Of a DNA stretch of 34,577 nt, positions 857 to 34,577 are shown one piece after another. The translations under genes and the position numbers were made by a program. Below the pieces are notes generated by a model. That model did not search any database, was not told the DNA's origin, and worked only from the letters and a program-made list of their open reading frames with translations. The stretch comes from a virus, in the IMG/VR virus record IMGVR_UViG_3300038701_001877, positions 1-34,577 of that record; one strand, given 5' to 3'. Numbering within the stretch: the stretch's first letter is position 1; the number at the start of each line of letters is the position of its first letter.

Positions 857-909
857 TTTACATATAATTTTATTATGTTATAAGATTAGATATTAACAAA
901 AACGAGGGA
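857..909 (+). promoter_or_regulatory. Sigma70-like promoter with AACGAGGGA leader for the gene at 914
   Basis: TTTACA (857-862), a 16-base spacer and TATAAG (879-884) form a good sigma70-type promoter with an extended -10 (TGT before the hexamer). Transcription would start near 891, giving an untranslated leader of about 23 bases that contains AACGAGGGA at 901-909, directly before the ATG at 914. The same leader word precedes three other genes. Confidence 0.6.
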
Positions 910-5760: not shown

Positions 5761-6803
5761 TGTCTATTATAAAAAACATAGTTTCAAGTATAGCTTCAAA
5801 TATAGCCAAGCCTATAACTGGTGAAGTTAGTCAATCTGGTGAGCCTGGATCTTATATTTTAAATGTTGAAAGAGGATCTTTTACTTCTACAGGATACGAT
5901 CCAGACTTGAGAAGATTTAAGTTAGAGGTTGATAGAGGTTCTTTTACCTCCACAGGATACGACCCAGATTTGAGAAGAGAGAGAATATTAAATGTTGATA
6001 GAGGTTCTTTCACTTCTACAGGATACGATGTTACTTTTACGTATAATGCTGGCAATCCAAGTGTAGCAGATTCTGACGCTCAAGCAATTGTAGATGAGTC
6101 TATAGATGCTGGTTGGGATATGACACAAGATCAAGCAGATCAAATACAGACTTTAGTAAGTACACTAAAAACTGATGGTGTATGGAGTAAAATGGACACT
6201 CTATATATGATGCACTCTGATAATATAGATGCTGCTGCAATAGACTGGAAAAACCCTACAGGAACGCCAGCAACTCAAGTTAGTAGTCCTGCATTTACAG
6301 CTTTTGAGGGTATCGGGCTAAATGGCGGTTGTTTAGAGCCAGCTACAGATTTTGGTGATTATGCTAACTATGGTCAAAACGATAACCACGTTGGGGTTGG
6401 TTTATACGCTAATTCTGGTGTAACTAGACCAGTTTATGAGCAGAACGGTACAAATTCAGATCATTTCTTCTATCATAGGTATTCTGGAACTAATGAATGT
6501 CAATTAAAACACGACACTAATTCGTTTAACATTGTTTCAAATTCAAGCGATGGTCATGCTAATTTTTGTGTTGTAAGAACTAGCTCTACAAATATTAATG
6601 TTTACAGAAATGGTAGTTCTTTAGGTAGCGTTACTACAGGTGTGGCACAACCACCAGAATCAGATAATATAGAGTTACCAAGTAGAAATACAGCATCTAA
6701 CTACTATATTAAATACTGGCATGCAGGGCAAAGCTTAACAGCTACAGAGGCTAGTAATTTAGATACTGCCATGGATACTTATTTAGCTAACCAAACAGCG
6801 TAG
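5760..6803 (+). CDS. Fibre- or adhesin-like virion protein with lectin-like domain, 347 aa
   Basis: Residues 34-90 hold three copies of the motif RGSFTSTGYD, each within a repeat of about 21 residues, likely a short beta-strand shaft. The middle starts a helical segment (DQADQIQTLVSTLKTDGVWS) leading into a C-terminal region whose pattern (GVGLYANSG, FFYHRYSG, VYRNGSSLGSVTTG, YYIKYWHAGQSLTATEASNL) resembles concanavalin/LamG-like carbohydrate-binding domains found in many phage virion proteins. Its place in the head module, not with the tail fibres, suggests a head-attached fibre or decoration that binds host glycans; that is inference. Confidence 0.65.
   Translation: MSIIKNIVSSIASNIAKPITGEVSQSGEPGSYILNVERGSFTSTGYDPDLRRFKLEVDRGSFTSTGYDPDLRRERILNVDRGSFTSTGYDVTFTYNAGNPSVADSDAQAIVDESIDAGWDMTQDQADQIQTLVSTLKTDGVWSKMDTLYMMHSDNIDAAAIDWKNPTGTPATQVSSPAFTAFEGIGLNGGCLEPATDFGDYANYGQNDNHVGVGLYANSGVTRPVYEQNGTNSDHFFYHRYSGTNECQLKHDTNSFNIVSNSSDGHANFCVVRTSSTNINVYRNGSSLGSVTTGVAQPPESDNIELPSRNTASNYYIKYWHAGQSLTATEASNLDTAMDTYLANQTA
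5859..6029 (+). repeat. Three imperfect in-frame repeats of about 63-66 bp
   Basis: The three units encode LNVERGSFTSTGYDPDLRR, LEVDRGSFTSTGYDPDLRR and LNVDRGSFTSTGYD. Many differences are silent (for example GGATCT/GGTTCT and ACTTCT/ACCTCC), so the repeats are old enough to have diverged at synonymous sites while the protein motif is kept. Confidence 0.85.
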
Positions 6804-25222: not shown

Positions 25223-25593
25223 TCCTCACCTCTGATATATTTTTGGACTGCTTTAACCTTTCCACTAAAGCCAATAGGATAGCTTTTTACAAGCATATAT
25301 TTAATTTTTTGCTCATCCTCAACCCTATCAATCATAGCCTGATAGTCTTGGAGTGTTTTCTTTACATCTTTATACAGAGGTATAGGCATCGAAGCTTTAT
25401 CAGTCCAAACTACTTCGTTACGCATTTTCTCAATTAATTCTGATTCTGTATATTTTGTAGGGAATGGCAATCCTGTTATTTTATTTTCTTCTGACACTTT
25501 CTTAACAGGCACTGGATTATATTGCCCATCACCATTTACTTCCCATACAATTCCATCAGCTTCTTCAAAGTTATCTACTTTTTTGTATGTCAT
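25219..25593 (-). CDS. Hypothetical protein with shared C-terminal module (copy 1), 124 aa
   Basis: The N-terminal part (MTYKKVDNFEEADGIVWEVN) is unique. The C-terminal 50 residues (TLQDYQAMIDRVED ... AVQKYIRGEE) are nearly shared with the upstream neighbour at 25590. The gene overlaps both neighbours by 4 bases and starts behind GAGGTGAGGT. The module may be an interaction element. Function unknown. Confidence 0.55.
   Translation of the reverse strand: MTYKKVDNFEEADGIVWEVNGDGQYNPVPVKKVSEENKITGLPFPTKYTESELIEKMRNEVVWTDKASMPIPLYKDVKKTLQDYQAMIDRVEDEQKIKYMLVKSYPIGFSGKVKAVQKYIRGEE
25315..25355. repeat. 41-bp exact direct repeat, copy 1
   Basis: Identical to 25701-25741. On the minus strand it codes for LQDYQAMIDRVED in both genes. 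A second identical stretch of 19 bases (25224-25242 and 25595-25613) codes the end of the modules. Confidence 0.9.
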
Positions 25594-25865
25594 ACCTCAC
25601 CTCTGATATATTTCTGTATTCTTGATGCAGTAATTTTCGACCATAAAATATTACTTTCAGATGGTATAAAATCTTGCATATATTTAGCTAGCGTATCTCT
25701 ATCCTCAACCCTATCAATCATAGCCTGATAGTCTTGGAGTGCTATTTTAGAATCTTCAAACAAATTCTTTGCCTCAAGTGGGTCTACACCTTCATCACTA
25801 TAAAAATCATCCAAGATGTTTTCTAGTCTCTCAATCAACTCTTTTATTTCTTTGCTATTTGTCAT
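25590..25865 (-). CDS. Hypothetical protein with shared C-terminal module (copy 2), 91 aa
   Basis: Starts MTNSKEIKELIERLENILDD behind AGAGG. Residues after about 42 (ALQDYQAMIDRVEDRDTLAK, ending RIQKYIRGEV) repeat the C-terminal module of the next gene. The rest is acidic and helical. It overlaps the small membrane gene upstream by 11 bases. Function unknown; it is one half of a tandem duplication. Confidence 0.55.
   Translation of the reverse strand: MTNSKEIKELIERLENILDDFYSDEGVDPLEAKNLFEDSKIALQDYQAMIDRVEDRDTLAKYMQDFIPSESNILWSKITASRIQKYIRGEV
25701..25741. repeat. 41-bp exact direct repeat, copy 2
   Basis: Second copy of the 25315-25355 repeat, 386 bases away. The bases between the two identical stretches have diverged, so the core is either recently converted or under strong constraint. 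Confidence 0.9.
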
Positions 25866-26604: not shown

Positions 26605-26723
26605 TTTTTCCTCACTATTCTGTTAATTTGATCTTTACTCCAAAACTTATATTCTCTTTTGTCGGTGCTAAATTTTAGCGTATAATAATCTAGCAACCAT
26701 ATATATCTAATTTCATAACTCAT
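26592..26723 (-). CDS. Small basic protein, 43 aa
   Basis: Begins MSYEIRYIWLLDYYTLKFST at an ATGA overlap with the upstream stop, and ends in RKKCTK. Tyr/Trp-rich and basic. The overlap-type start supports that it is expressed with its neighbours. No function recognised. Confidence 0.5.
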   Translation of the reverse strand: MSYEIRYIWLLDYYTLKFSTDKREYKFWSKDQINRIVRKKCTK

Positions 26724-27034
26724 AAGTCCTCGTCATTACGTTCAGCGATAGATTCTATTTCATCTTGTTCATATCTATTGCGTTTTTCCTCTTCATCTTG
26801 CCATTGGTAATGCTCTTCGTATGCTAACCAAGCATTGCTAGATAAATCCTCAATAGATATTTTGCCATCTTCAAAACAAATAGTATGCTGGTAATCATCT
26901 ATATTGTTTTCACATCTTGGACTATGTGCAAAACCCAACTCTTTTATAGCCTCTTTTTTAGTCCAGCAAAAAGGTTCATCGGCTTCGTTGTATATATCTC
27001 TAATGCATGCAAAAATGTTAATGTAGTATTTCAT
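26720..27034 (-). CDS. Hypothetical acidic protein, 104 aa
   Basis: First gene behind an internal promoter and the AACGAGGGA leader, so likely well expressed. It reads MKYYINIFACIRDIYNEADE and contains CWTKKEAIKELGFAHSPRCE, then an acidic Glu/Asp-rich end (QDEEEKRNRYEQDEIESIAE). No motif is recognised; acidic, DNA-mimic-like composition at the end is only suggestive. Confidence 0.6.
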   Translation of the reverse strand: MKYYINIFACIRDIYNEADEPFCWTKKEAIKELGFAHSPRCENNIDDYQHTICFEDGKISIEDLSSNAWLAYEEHYQWQDEEEKRNRYEQDEIESIAERNDEDL

Positions 27035-27038
27035 ATTT

Positions 27039-27089
27039 TCCCTCGTTTGTTGTTAAGGGTACTATATCAGATAATATATTATTTGTTAA
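27039..27089 (-). promoter_or_regulatory. Internal leftward promoter with AACGAGGGA leader
   Basis: On the minus strand TTAACA (27089-27084), 17 bases and TATAGT (27066-27061), preceded by TGA, form an extended -10 promoter. Start would fall near 27054, and the leader contains AACGAGGGA (27047-27039) five bases before ATG. The leftward block is therefore probably more than one transcript. Confidence 0.6.
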
Positions 27090-31092: not shown

Positions 31093-31917
31093 TTAAAATG
31101 GTATATCATCATCTATAAGCTCATTTTCTTTTGGCGGTTCATAAGCTTTAGCTAATAATAAAAATTTATCATTTAATTGATCTGCGTATTCTTCTCCAAA
31201 TGTTTTTTCTGACCACGTTACCCACTTATCCTTCAAAGGCTTAACCTGATTATATTTATCAGCATCATCAACCCTATCCAATGTTGCAAATCTATCTTCA
31301 TATGTCTTTTTTAACTTAGCTTTATTAGGTTTTTCTTGCTTAGGATTATCATCTGTTATTTCTGGCTTTGCATTATCAACCTTTTTAAGGTTGCTCCAAA
31401 CTTCTTTATTATCATAAGTTATAGTAAAATGCGGAATGCCTTTTTTAACTTCAAAAGCCGAAACATCTAAATTATTAGCAAAAAACTTCTTAGGTTTATA
31501 TTGAGTTTTATTAGTTTTTGGATTTGTGAACTCTTGCATATCCCATTTTATAAAAATAAAAGGGCTTCTATATAACTCAATACCGATTCCAAATTTATAC
31601 CCTGCACGCTTAAAAGCATCTGAATAAGAACCCTTTTCTTTTTCTGTCATAGATTCTGTGCCAACGTCAGTACGGCTAACCCACTCATCGCCTGATTTAA
31701 CTGTTATAGTGCAAGCTAATATACCTTTATTATCGTAATGATATGAGTTTTGCCAATTTAAACCAAATACATCGTTTAATCTTTTTACATCAGTTCTTGC
31801 GGTTTTATATAACAACAATGAAAAGCCATTTTTAAAATTAGAACCAACTCTTAATTCTACATCTTCAGCAGATAAAGGTTCGCATAACTTTTCTATAATA
31901 GTTTTTTCTTTACTCAT
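31093..31917 (-). CDS. Rad52-like single-strand annealing protein with SSB-like tail
   Basis: The N-terminal 150 residues match the Rad52/Rad22 annealase family: LSAEDVELRVG, the beta region CTITVKSGDEWVSRTDVGTE and the signature KEKGSYSDAFKRAGYKFGIG-IELY. It pairs complementary strands during recombination-dependent replication. The C-terminal third is charged linker and ends in DDDIPF, the same six residues that end E. coli SSB. It is the first gene of the leftward block with the AACGAGGGA leader. Confidence 0.85.
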   Translation of the reverse strand: MSKEKTIIEKLCEPLSAEDVELRVGSNFKNGFSLLLYKTARTDVKRLNDVFGLNWQNSYHYDNKGILACTITVKSGDEWVSRTDVGTESMTEKEKGSYSDAFKRAGYKFGIGIELYRSPFIFIKWDMQEFTNPKTNKTQYKPKKFFANNLDVSAFEVKKGIPHFTITYDNKEVWSNLKKVDNAKPEITDDNPKQEKPNKAKLKKTYEDRFATLDRVDDADKYNQVKPLKDKWVTWSEKTFGEEYADQLNDKFLLLAKAYEPPKENELIDDDIPF

Positions 31918-31921
31918 AATA

Positions 31922-31970
31922 TCCCTCGTTTTGTATACCTAATTTATACACATTACTAAAACCATGTAAA
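31922..31970 (-). promoter_or_regulatory. Leftward early promoter with AACGAGGGA leader
   Basis: On the minus strand TTTACA (31970-31965), 16 bases and TATAAA (31948-31943). Start near 31936 would leave a leader of about 19 bases containing AACGAGGGA (31930-31922) before the annealase ATG at 31917. The architecture matches the promoter at 857-884. Confidence 0.65.
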
Positions 31971-32022
31971 GAAATATTTTAACATTTTTTGCTTTATTTT
32001 AAATTTTAGTTGTGTATAAATT
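31941..32022. promoter_or_regulatory. Divergent control region with 12-bp inverted repeat
   Basis: AATTTATACACA (31941-31952) and TGTGTATAAATT (32011-32022) are exact inverted copies. Each contains a TATAAA -10 pointing outwards, so one protein could control both operons. The rightward copy has only a weak -35 (TTTATT, 31993-31998). The 58-base middle is AT-rich and may be a replication origin or regulator site. Confidence 0.55.
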
Positions 32023-32061: not shown

Positions 32062-32421
32062 ATGAACAAGCCTAAAGAAATAAAAATTAAACCTATAGCA
32101 AAGCCTAGAATGACTAGGCGAGATAAATGGCTTAAGCCACCTAGAAAATGCGTTTCTGAATACTGGGCTTTTAAAGATGAGTTAAATAAGCATAATATAT
32201 ATATTGATGATAGTTTGAATATTACGTTTATGATTGCTATGCCAAAATCATGGAGTAAAAAGAAAAAAAGAATATTTGCTGGCACGCCACATAAACAGAG
32301 GCCGGATGCCGATAATCTAGTTAAGTCAGTATTAGATTGTTTATTAAAAGAAGATTCGCATGTTTATAAAATCCATGCTGAGAAATACTGGGATTATGAT
32401 GACAAAATTATGATCTGGTAA
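32062..32421 (+). CDS. RusA-like Holliday junction resolvase
   Basis: Cuts four-way DNA junctions from recombination before packaging. Family elements: KPRMTRRDKWLKPP near the start, the strand IAMPKSWSKKKK, and the catalytic core RPDADNLVKSVLD (D82, D84, K88, D92), followed by ED98 and a C-terminal EKYWDYDD strand. Length 119 is typical. It is the first gene of the rightward early unit; the ribosome-binding site (CAGGGA) is 14 bases away and weak. A stem-loop follows directly. Confidence 0.88.
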   Translation: MNKPKEIKIKPIAKPRMTRRDKWLKPPRKCVSEYWAFKDELNKHNIYIDDSLNITFMIAMPKSWSKKKKRIFAGTPHKQRPDADNLVKSVLDCLLKEDSHVYKIHAEKYWDYDDKIMIW

Positions 32422-32427
32422 AGAACA

Positions 32428-32496
32428 GGCTGGCTAAGTTTCTTCCTCGTTGCTTAGTCAGTCACTTTATTAAACGAGGAACAACAAAACGAGGGA
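32428..32496 (+). ncRNA. Candidate H-type pseudoknot / RNA switch in the leader of the gene at 32502
   Basis: GGCTGGCTAAG (32428-32438) pairs with CTTAGTCAGTC (32453-32463), 11 pairs with two G-U. The 14-base loop holds TTCCTCGTT (32443-32451), exactly complementary to AACGAGGAA at 32473-32481, and with one G-U to the ribosome-binding leader AACGAGGGA at 32488-32496. Loop and linker lengths (4, 1 and 9) suit an H-type pseudoknot. No T tract follows, so it is not a simple terminator. Confidence 0.55.
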
Positions 32497-32501
32497 AAAC
32501 T

Positions 32502-32612
32502 ATGAAAGACTATCAATCTTTTTTAGAATCTAAAAGTTTAATTTTTCAAGCTGAAGGGTTGGACTTAAATATTAACCATGATAATTTCCTGATTATCCTT
32601 CCTTACTTTTAA
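32502..32612 (+). CDS. Small protein, 36 aa, possible remnant
   Basis: Starts MKDYQSFLESKSLIFQAEGL behind the AACGAGGGA leader. The 'YQ.FLESK' opening and following 'GLDLN' resemble the N-terminal end of phage DEAD/SNF2-type helicase or methylase proteins, after which this frame stops. It may be a degenerate beginning of such a gene or a functional microprotein under control of the upstream structure. Weak evidence on function. Confidence 0.45.
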   Translation: MKDYQSFLESKSLIFQAEGLDLNINHDNFLIILPYF

Positions 32613-32644: not shown

Positions 32645-33307
32645 ATGAAAATATACGAAATAAAAAACTGGCAAAATTATCAGCACTATAAGGATAGAAA
32701 TCCCCCTTGGATTAAACTTCATTATGAACTTTTAACCTCTAAGGATTGGGTTAAATTTGATGATGATAGCAAGTTGCTAGCAATTGTTTGCATGATGATT
32801 GCAAGTCGCAATCAAGGTAAAATTGAAGATGATGTTGATTATCTTAAATCAGTAGCTCAATTACGAAAGAAACCAAAGCTAGAACCTCTTATAAATAGCG
32901 GTTTTCTTATACTTATAGAGGATACGCAAGCAGATGCTAGCATGATGCAAGCAGATGCTATAATAGAAACAGAGACAGAGACAGAGACAGAGACAGAGAC
33001 ATATATATCCGTGTTTAATTCTGTTTTATCCAAACAAGCTAGATTAACTGATAGTAGAAGAAGAGCGATAGTTAGTTTTGCTAAAAAAGTTTCTATTGAA
33101 GATTTTGAAAAGGCAATGCAAAAAGTTAAAGAATCTAAATTTCTTAATACTCAATGGACTAACTGGGGCTTTGATTGGTTTTTGAATGAAAAAAATTTTA
33201 CCAAAGTTATTGAAGGAAATTATGATGATAAAATTAGTAAAGCTAAAACATCAAATTTTGAGCAACAAGATTATTATAAGGGAACGGAGGATTTAAATGT
33301 CGTATGA
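32645..33307 (+). CDS. Replication initiator / replisome organiser-like protein, 220 aa
   Basis: Start ATG at 32645 behind a full AGGAGGT site. The N-terminal domain (YEIKNWQNYQHYKDRNPPWI, KLHYELLTSKDWVKFDDDSK, then VDYLKSVAQLRKKP) matches winged-helix N-terminal domains of phage replication proteins. A variable linker with six Glu-Thr pairs separates it from a C-terminal helical domain (RRAIVSFAKKVSIEDFEKAM; TNWGFDWFLNEKNF). The helicase loader gene overlaps its end, which supports a role in opening the origin and recruiting the helicase. Confidence 0.7.
   Translation: MKIYEIKNWQNYQHYKDRNPPWIKLHYELLTSKDWVKFDDDSKLLAIVCMMIASRNQGKIEDDVDYLKSVAQLRKKPKLEPLINSGFLILIEDTQADASMMQADAIIETETETETETETYISVFNSVLSKQARLTDSRRRAIVSFAKKVSIEDFEKAMQKVKESKFLNTQWTNWGFDWFLNEKNFTKVIEGNYDDKISKAKTSNFEQQDYYKGTEDLNVV
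32966..33001 (+). repeat. Hexanucleotide microsatellite coding (Glu-Thr)6
   Basis: GAAACA followed by five GAGACA units, in frame. Just upstream GCAAGCAGATGCTA occurs twice (32926-32939 and 32947-32960) 21 bases apart. The whole linker looks prone to length change in steps of two residues without frame loss. Confidence 0.9.
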
Positions 33308-34097
33308 GATTAAAGAAATAGAAGAAAATATCTATGAAAGATATATTGATTGCGAAATACATGGTAAGCAAATTCAAAGAGGCTATAGATTTACCTCTGA
33401 TAGTGATATTATGTGGCATGGCTGCGGTTTATGCTATGGTGAAGAAAAAGAAAGAAAAAAAGAAGAAGAGCAAAAAGAACTTAAAAATAAGCGTTTAAAA
33501 GAATTAAATGCTTTAAAATTAAAACTAAAAAAACAATCTGAAGTTCCTGTTAGGTATCAAGAATCTGTTATTAATTCTTTTGTTTCTGAAAATAATCAAC
33601 AAGAAGAAAAAAAGCAATTTTGCAAGAAATATATAGAAAATTTTATTGAAGGTTTGAGTGTTGGGCGTTCTATGATTTTTTGTGGCACTACAGGAACAGG
33701 AAAAACATTGTTAGCCTGTGCAATTGCTAATGAAATAATTGAAAAGCACCAAAGGTCAGTTTTATTTACTACCACCATTAAAGCTATTAGAAAAATTAAA
33801 TCAACTTATTCTAGTTCTTCTGAAAAAACAGAGCAAGAAATAATCAACGAATTTTTAAGTTATGATTTGTTGATATTAGATGAATTAGGTGTTCAATTTG
33901 GATCTGATTCTGAAAAAGTTATTTTATTTGAAATCATTAATGAAAGATATCAAGAAAAAAAACCAACAATTATGATTAGCAACTTAGCTTATGAAAGTTT
34001 AAGAAATTATGTTGATGATAGGGTTTTAGATAGAATGAAAGAAGGTGGCGGCGGAGTTTTGATTTTTGACTGGAAAAGCAAAAGAGGAAAAGTTTAA
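33297..34097 (+). CDS. DnaC / IstB-like helicase loader ATPase
   Basis: AAA+ ATPase that loads the host replicative helicase. Walker A is GTTGTGKT (130-137), Walker B is DLLILDE (190-196), the sensor I segment is TIMISNL (224-230) and an Arg-finger-type end DDRVLDRM follows. The N-terminus has a possible zinc site C19-x2-H22 ... C43-x2-C46 and a Lys/Glu coiled linker. At 266 residues the length is typical. It starts in the end of the initiator-like gene. Confidence 0.88.
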   Translation: MSYEIKEIEENIYERYIDCEIHGKQIQRGYRFTSDSDIMWHGCGLCYGEEKERKKEEEQKELKNKRLKELNALKLKLKKQSEVPVRYQESVINSFVSENNQQEEKKQFCKKYIENFIEGLSVGRSMIFCGTTGTGKTLLACAIANEIIEKHQRSVLFTTTIKAIRKIKSTYSSSSEKTEQEIINEFLSYDLLILDELGVQFGSDSEKVILFEIINERYQEKKPTIMISNLAYESLRNYVDDRVLDRMKEGGGGVLIFDWKSKRGKV

Positions 34098-34303: not shown

Positions 34304-34577
34304 ATGTTAAACCAGTGTAATTTTATAGGGAATGTAGGCAAAGAGCCAGAAATTAGAGCTATGAATAACGGCAATGAAGTAGCTAATTTTAGCTTAGGTT
34401 GCTCAGAATCATGGACTGATAAACAGACAGGCGAAAAGAAAACTAACACTACCTGGATTAATGTAGTTGCTTATGGTGGGCTTGTTCAAGTTGTAAAAAA
34501 CTATGTTGATAAAGGCAGTAAGCTATATATTTCTGGTAAGTTTAATACGAGAAAATGGCAAGATCAAAACGGCACCT
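34304..34577 (+). CDS. ssb: Single-stranded DNA-binding protein, N-terminal part
   Basis: Starts MLNQCNFIGNVGKEPEIRAM right after the upstream stop (TAA-ATG), followed by VANFSLGCSESWTDKQTGEK and TTWINVVAYGG, the OB-fold core of bacterial and phage SSBs. The gene runs off the window and continues at 2-286; joined length is 142 residues. The last codon (Thr for Asn) is likely a sequence-end artefact. Confidence 0.92.
   Translation, partial: MLNQCNFIGNVGKEPEIRAMNNGNEVANFSLGCSESWTDKQTGEKKTNTTWINVVAYGGLVQVVKNYVDKGSKLYISGKFNTRKWQDQNGT
34449..34574. repeat. Right copy of the 126-bp terminal direct repeat
   Basis: Second copy of bases 3-128. Both copies are in the same reading frame of ssb. See the left copy for interpretation. 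Confidence 0.93.

Follow-up and report, generated by a model that had tools for sequence, protein, structure and literature searches.

A hairpin loop complementary to a recurring ribosome-binding leader in a phage replication module: a possible cis pseudoknot

The stretch of DNA analysed here (the window, 34,577 bases) is an AT-rich phage record with a GC content of 33%. An identical repeat of 126 bp lies near both of its ends (3-128 and 34449-34574), and an SSB-like gene that begins at 34304 on the plus strand passes through the right-hand copy and is cut by the end of the window. The end repeat and the cut gene suggest that the genome is circularly closed or permuted, and the record appears to be a whole genome assembled as a circle, apart from a few bases at its tips that do not match. 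The structural region at 5859-6044 holds a coding repeat of about 57 nt in three near-tandem copies. A 62-nt repeat with 87% identity (25315-25376 versus 25701-25762) is found between small ORFs that are neighbours on the minus strand; the start regions of these ORFs match too, and a gene duplication is the likely origin of this arrangement.

The replication module occupies the right side of the window. An Erf/Rad52-like annealing protein gene (31093-31917, minus strand) is read leftwards, and is followed by five genes or ORFs read rightwards: rusA, an ORF of 36 amino acids (ORF36), an O/DnaD-like replication initiation gene, a DnaC-like loader gene (33297-34097) and the SSB-like gene. The rusA-like gene (32062-32421; Pfam RusA, E 4.9e-12; phrog_140, E 2.8e-20) encodes a Holliday junction resolvase of 119 aa, and its stop codon (32419-32421) lies 6 nt upstream of the hairpin described below. 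The O-like gene (32645-33307; phrog_10469, E 1.9e-16, and others) has its own Shine-Dalgarno sequence, CAGGAGG. In the interior of this gene, at 32930-33000, two copies of GCAAGCAGATGCTA are followed by a GAGACA run, and these are possible replication-origin iterons. The divergent intergenic region between Erf and rusA contains a perfect 12-nt inverted repeat, AATTTATACACA / TGTGTATAAATT (31941-31952 and 32011-32022), which is a candidate repressor operator pair.

ORF36 (32502-32612, plus strand; MKDYQSFLESKSLIFQAEGLDLNINHDNFLIILPYF) is a candidate target of the hairpin or a candidate leader peptide. No relatives of it were detected by Pfam/PHROG-type profile searches and protein homology searches. 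The preliminary description had spoken of the leader of the "next gene"; what follows is this 36-aa ORF without detectable relatives, whereas the replication gene starts only at 32645. Inside ORF36 there is a further hairpin of 15 bp (32534-32566), with several G-U pairs and a 3-nt loop.

The gap between rusA and ORF36 is occupied by a hairpin, S1 (32428-32463, plus strand), with an 11-bp stem and a 14-nt loop. Its arms, GGCUGGCUAAG (32428-32438) and CUUAGUCAGUC (32453-32463), form 11 pairs including two G-U, and the loop could be closed by a twelfth pair, U-G. Folded by itself, S1 is stable (-17.5 kcal/mol), with a z of -4.2 for 32422-32470. A segment of the loop, UUCCUCGUU (32443-32451), is complementary at 9/9 positions to a downstream copy of the leader, AACGAGGAA (32473-32481), referred to here as the upstream copy and the preferred partner. 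The same segment can also pair, with a single G-U among the nine pairs, with AACGAGGGA (32488-32496), the Shine-Dalgarno leader of ORF36, which ends 5 nt upstream of the ATG of this ORF (32502). The complementarity of the loop reaches 11/12 and then stops. Direct reading of the sequence agrees base for base with the stem, the exact complement and the one-G-U match that had been described previously, and the hairpin with a leader-complementary loop is a real sequence feature. Positions 32473-32502 (plus strand) are made up of near-tandem 15-nt units, AACGAGGAACAACAA / AACGAGGGAAAACTA, identical at 12/15 positions; the putative decoy copy thus resembles a leader duplicate that has diverged, of the kind left by simple tandem duplication. 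An intrinsic terminator was sought at S1 and not found, and the stem sequence does not stand out as a repeated DNA operator (9 matches at 2 mismatches, versus 6.7 by chance).

The leader itself recurs. The motif AACGAGGRA occurs six times in the window against 0.14 expected, a count of six was reached in 0/100 shuffles, and the recurring leader is therefore a solid fact for this phage. One of the six sites is the loop complement (minus strand), one is the upstream copy, and four lie 13-14 nt before start codons, at 914 (+), 27034 (-), 31917 (-) and 32502 (+). As had been claimed, the leader is identical at the three distant sites: AACGAGGGA is found exactly at 901-909 (+), before the ORF that starts at 914, at 27039-27047 (-), before an ORF at 26720-27034 (-), and at 31922-31930 (-), before the Erf/Rad52-like gene, in each case 13 nt upstream of the start. 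An extended leader, AAACGAGGGA, is common to all four genes (901, 27039(-), 31922(-) and 32488), 13-14 nt from the start, which is far more than chance would give. The Shine-Dalgarno sequences of most other genes differ from AAACGAGGGA and are often weaker. The best evidence that ORF36 may be translated is that it shares this leader with real genes such as Erf.

How surprising the match of loop and leader is can be estimated by counting hairpins whose stem has 9 bp or more and whose loop finds a complement of 9 nt or longer no more than 60 nt downstream. The window contains a single such hairpin, where dinucleotide shuffling leads one to expect 0.033; the corresponding rate in real phage DNA, taken from 1.4 Mb of non-redundant loci, is 0.049 per 34.6 kb. 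The match is unusual, being somewhat improbable by chance, and is not decisive for function, because one hit was selected from the whole window and many kinds of pattern were possible. S1 may be an ordinary intercistronic stem-loop with a role in mRNA stability, processing or spacing, whose resemblance to the leader is coincidental or goes back to a single template switch that left a short, unused inverted copy. In all, 18 hairpins in the window reach 9 bp, each with a chance of about 0.001-0.002 of having a loop complement, and comparable loop complements also occur in unrelated phage DNA. In one apparent second case (locus L147), which was rejected, the complement is the arm of a terminator-like hairpin. 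The end of the complementarity at 11/12 also fits a coincidence, as does the lack of conservation among the homologues searched. Against it, the match sits exactly on the gene's own leader, in both copies. We put this explanation only a little below an even chance; if the knot is inactive, the locus would illustrate how a pyrimidine-rich loop can by chance match a purine-rich leader in its vicinity.

Close relatives of the phage were found neither by DNA searches (own record and phage collection) nor by searches with the RusA, O-like, Erf, DnaC-like, TerL and ORF36 proteins. The closest homologues are distant (at most 58% for RusA and at most 49% for TerL); the O-like protein has two partial matches in IMG/VR, and direct scans with the Erf and DnaC-like proteins gave zero. 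The combined hairpin-plus-leader pattern had no match in IMG/VR. The loop-plus-complement pattern was present in 11 records, about what chance could give, with no visible kinship in their flanks and no leader/start arrangement in the flanks read. The leader pattern was present in 44 records, with one match each, none recognisably related. In 14 of 102 RusA homologues, some hairpin with a stem of 8 bp or more lies in the first 160 nt after the stop, and none has a loop complement longer than 7 nt. In two distant neighbours read by eye (L118 and L120), a comparable hairpin was not noticed; the gene order in L118 is rusA, a 58-aa HTH ORF and an O-like gene. Thus, DNA, protein and pattern searches, including IMG/VR, yielded no relative carrying the element in which covariation or conservation could be seen. 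The collections searched may omit records very near the window, so that absence from these collections does not show absence in nature.

The predicted energies favour pairing of the loop. Stacking in S1 is predicted to contribute -14.5 kcal/mol and the duplex of loop and leader -11 to -13 kcal/mol, while pairing between the leader and the anti-Shine-Dalgarno sequence is weaker, at -5.9 to -7.0 kcal/mol. Pseudoknot formation typically carries a penalty of 7-10 kcal/mol, which the gain from the second stem (S2) on top of S1 should exceed. The layout is of the H-type, with a loop able to pair with a downstream strand, S1 of 11 bp, S2 of 9 bp and connecting loops of 4, 1 and 9 nt whose lengths can bridge the grooves; the whole knot would comprise 54 nt. 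In an A-form model, the distance to be bridged is about 16-21 A for the 4-nt loop, which crosses the deep groove over 9 bp, and about 40-42 A for the 9-nt loop, which crosses the shallow groove over 11 bp. Both distances appear bridgeable in the model, and an H-type pseudoknot is possible on steric and energetic grounds, so the earlier proposal that the spacings fit such a fold holds.

The same calculations bear on the suggestion of an even choice between a decoy and the true site, which they do not support. The upstream copy beats the true leader by a predicted 0.2-0.6 kcal/mol in the duplex, and its shorter connecting loop adds an estimated 1.1 kcal/mol or so, for a total modelled advantage of about 1.3-1.7 kcal/mol. 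The loop should be bound mostly to the upstream copy, because this copy comes first in transcription, matches it entirely through Watson-Crick pairs and has the shorter connecting loop. The simplest prediction is that the knot should form with the upstream copy and leave the true Shine-Dalgarno site mostly free. In nested folding, the cost of opening the ORF36 start is middling (rank 16/59).

These considerations lead to a tentative model in cis. The rusA-ORF36 gap of the rightward mRNA would fold into an H-type pseudoknot, in which the 11-bp S1 would form first and its loop would capture AACGAGGAA once transcribed, giving the 9-bp S2. The knot would end 21 nt upstream of the ORF36 start, so that the real Shine-Dalgarno sequence would be mostly exposed, and the knot would have a modest influence on ORF36 translation by marking how far upstream the ribosome landing site extends. 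While terminating on rusA, a ribosome would cover part of the 5' arm of S1; rusA traffic could open S1 and release the loop, which might then anneal to either leader copy. Sequence, complementarity and positions can be read directly and the energies are predicted from them; what we infer is the presence of the knot in the cell, an effect of it on translation and a tie to rusA termination. Cis pairing is favoured by the two complements at the leader, one exact at 9/9 and one with a single G-U, and by the fact that the target is a leader repeated at four starts. Against it, nested folding does not mask the ORF36 start to an unusual degree, and the leader copies resemble a simple tandem duplication. 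Overall, a functional cis pseudoknot between the loop and a leader copy is plausible, at somewhat less than even, with coincidence about equally probable. If the knot forms and acts, this phage would control translation by a loop complementary to its own leader, and the duplicated leader would be a built-in competitor.

The position of S1 also invites the reading that the knot is a recoding signal, with frameshifting or readthrough fusing RusA to ORF36. A spacing of about 6 nt between stop and stem is typical of recoding signals; S1 begins 6 nt past the stop of rusA, and no stop interrupts the -1 frame from the last part of rusA up to 32612. However, a slippery heptamer is absent before the rusA stop, ORF36 has its own Shine-Dalgarno sequence and ATG, and homologues align to residue 118/119, which shows that RusA is complete at this stop. 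Such a fusion is extremely improbable.

Since the leader recurs, the loop might instead act in trans, as part of an RNA made from the 3' region of rusA that represses the leaders at 901, 27039(-) and 31922(-) (Erf) by pairing with their Shine-Dalgarno sequences, in the manner of RNAIII. Three additional exact AACGAGGGA leaders are available, with a duplex of about -11 kcal/mol, and the Erf and 914 leaders are predicted to be open (1.8 and 3.7 kcal/mol, respectively). Yet the cis partner only 22 nt away should occupy the loop, a separate promoter or terminator delimiting a small RNA was not found, and pairing with all of the leaders follows automatically once one pairs. Regulation in trans is quite unlikely. 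A combined scheme, in which one loop controls the adjacent ORF in cis via the duplicated leader and Erf and other operons in trans, is very unlikely; if true, it would make the expression of several genes depend on how much rusA-O transcript is present.

The preliminary description knew of no phage element described with this design and presented novelty as an inference. The claim of novelty is too strong, since preQ1-I, ColIb-P9 repZ and T4 gene 32 all have pseudoknots that flank or pair with a Shine-Dalgarno site (PMC10622847, PMC9410914, PMC8383071, PMC535899), the last of these in a phage. The T4/RB69 gene 32 operator shares with our element a phage mRNA pseudoknot upstream of the start and the control of translation; it is about 28 nt long, lies 5' of the Shine-Dalgarno sequence and is bound, with UUAAA repeats, by gp32, an SSB (PMC535899). 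In contrast, the element described here is a 54-nt knot that would pair with a leader copy, before ORF36. The SSB-like gene at 34304 lies away from it, which differs from the autogenous arrangement of gene 32.

The preQ1-I riboswitch is a small metabolite-binding pseudoknot with short stems. It has in common with the phage element an H-type pseudoknot overlapping Shine-Dalgarno bases (PMC10622847, PMC9410914), but the phage element gives no sign of a ligand pocket. A search of Rfam gave no match at the gathering threshold and none meaningful at E<=5, and hence nothing that would place the element with preQ1 or SAM-type riboswitches.

A similar arrangement of genes is that of repY-repZ in the IncI-alpha plasmid ColIb-P9 (Asano and Mizobuchi 1998, via PMC8383071; PMC10724649). 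It shares a hairpin upstream of a short ORF and an initiator gene, and a pseudoknot that lies upstream of an RBS and is tied to translation (PMC8383071). By analogy, ORF36 might be a leader peptide under the control of S1, whose translation opens a stem over the start of the O-like gene. The order of hairpin, short ORF and replication initiator is indeed present, a predicted 15-bp stem (32577-32591/32632-32647) covers the O-gene Shine-Dalgarno sequence and start, and the opening cost of this start ranks 5/59. However, when the upstream sequence is shuffled, the start is masked at least as strongly in 147/200 cases, and the stem has a z of -1.0. The ColIb-P9 pseudoknot is also described as lying upstream of the initiator RBS itself, as needed for translation and as blocked by an antisense RNA (PMC8383071), whereas the phage loop complement precedes the short ORF and pairs at its leader, about 150 nt upstream of the O-like start. 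An antisense RNA is not evident, and no strong minus-strand promoter-like site was seen near S1. Coupling of this type is quite unlikely and amounts to a lead.

Finally, RNAIII of Staphylococcus aureus has C-rich loops complementary to the RBSs of several mRNAs, but it is a separate trans-acting RNA (PMC8383071), and no separate RNA is apparent for the phage element. Judged by their defining features, the element fits none of preQ1-I, ColIb-P9, gene 32 and RNAIII, and as a device it would be at most a variant.
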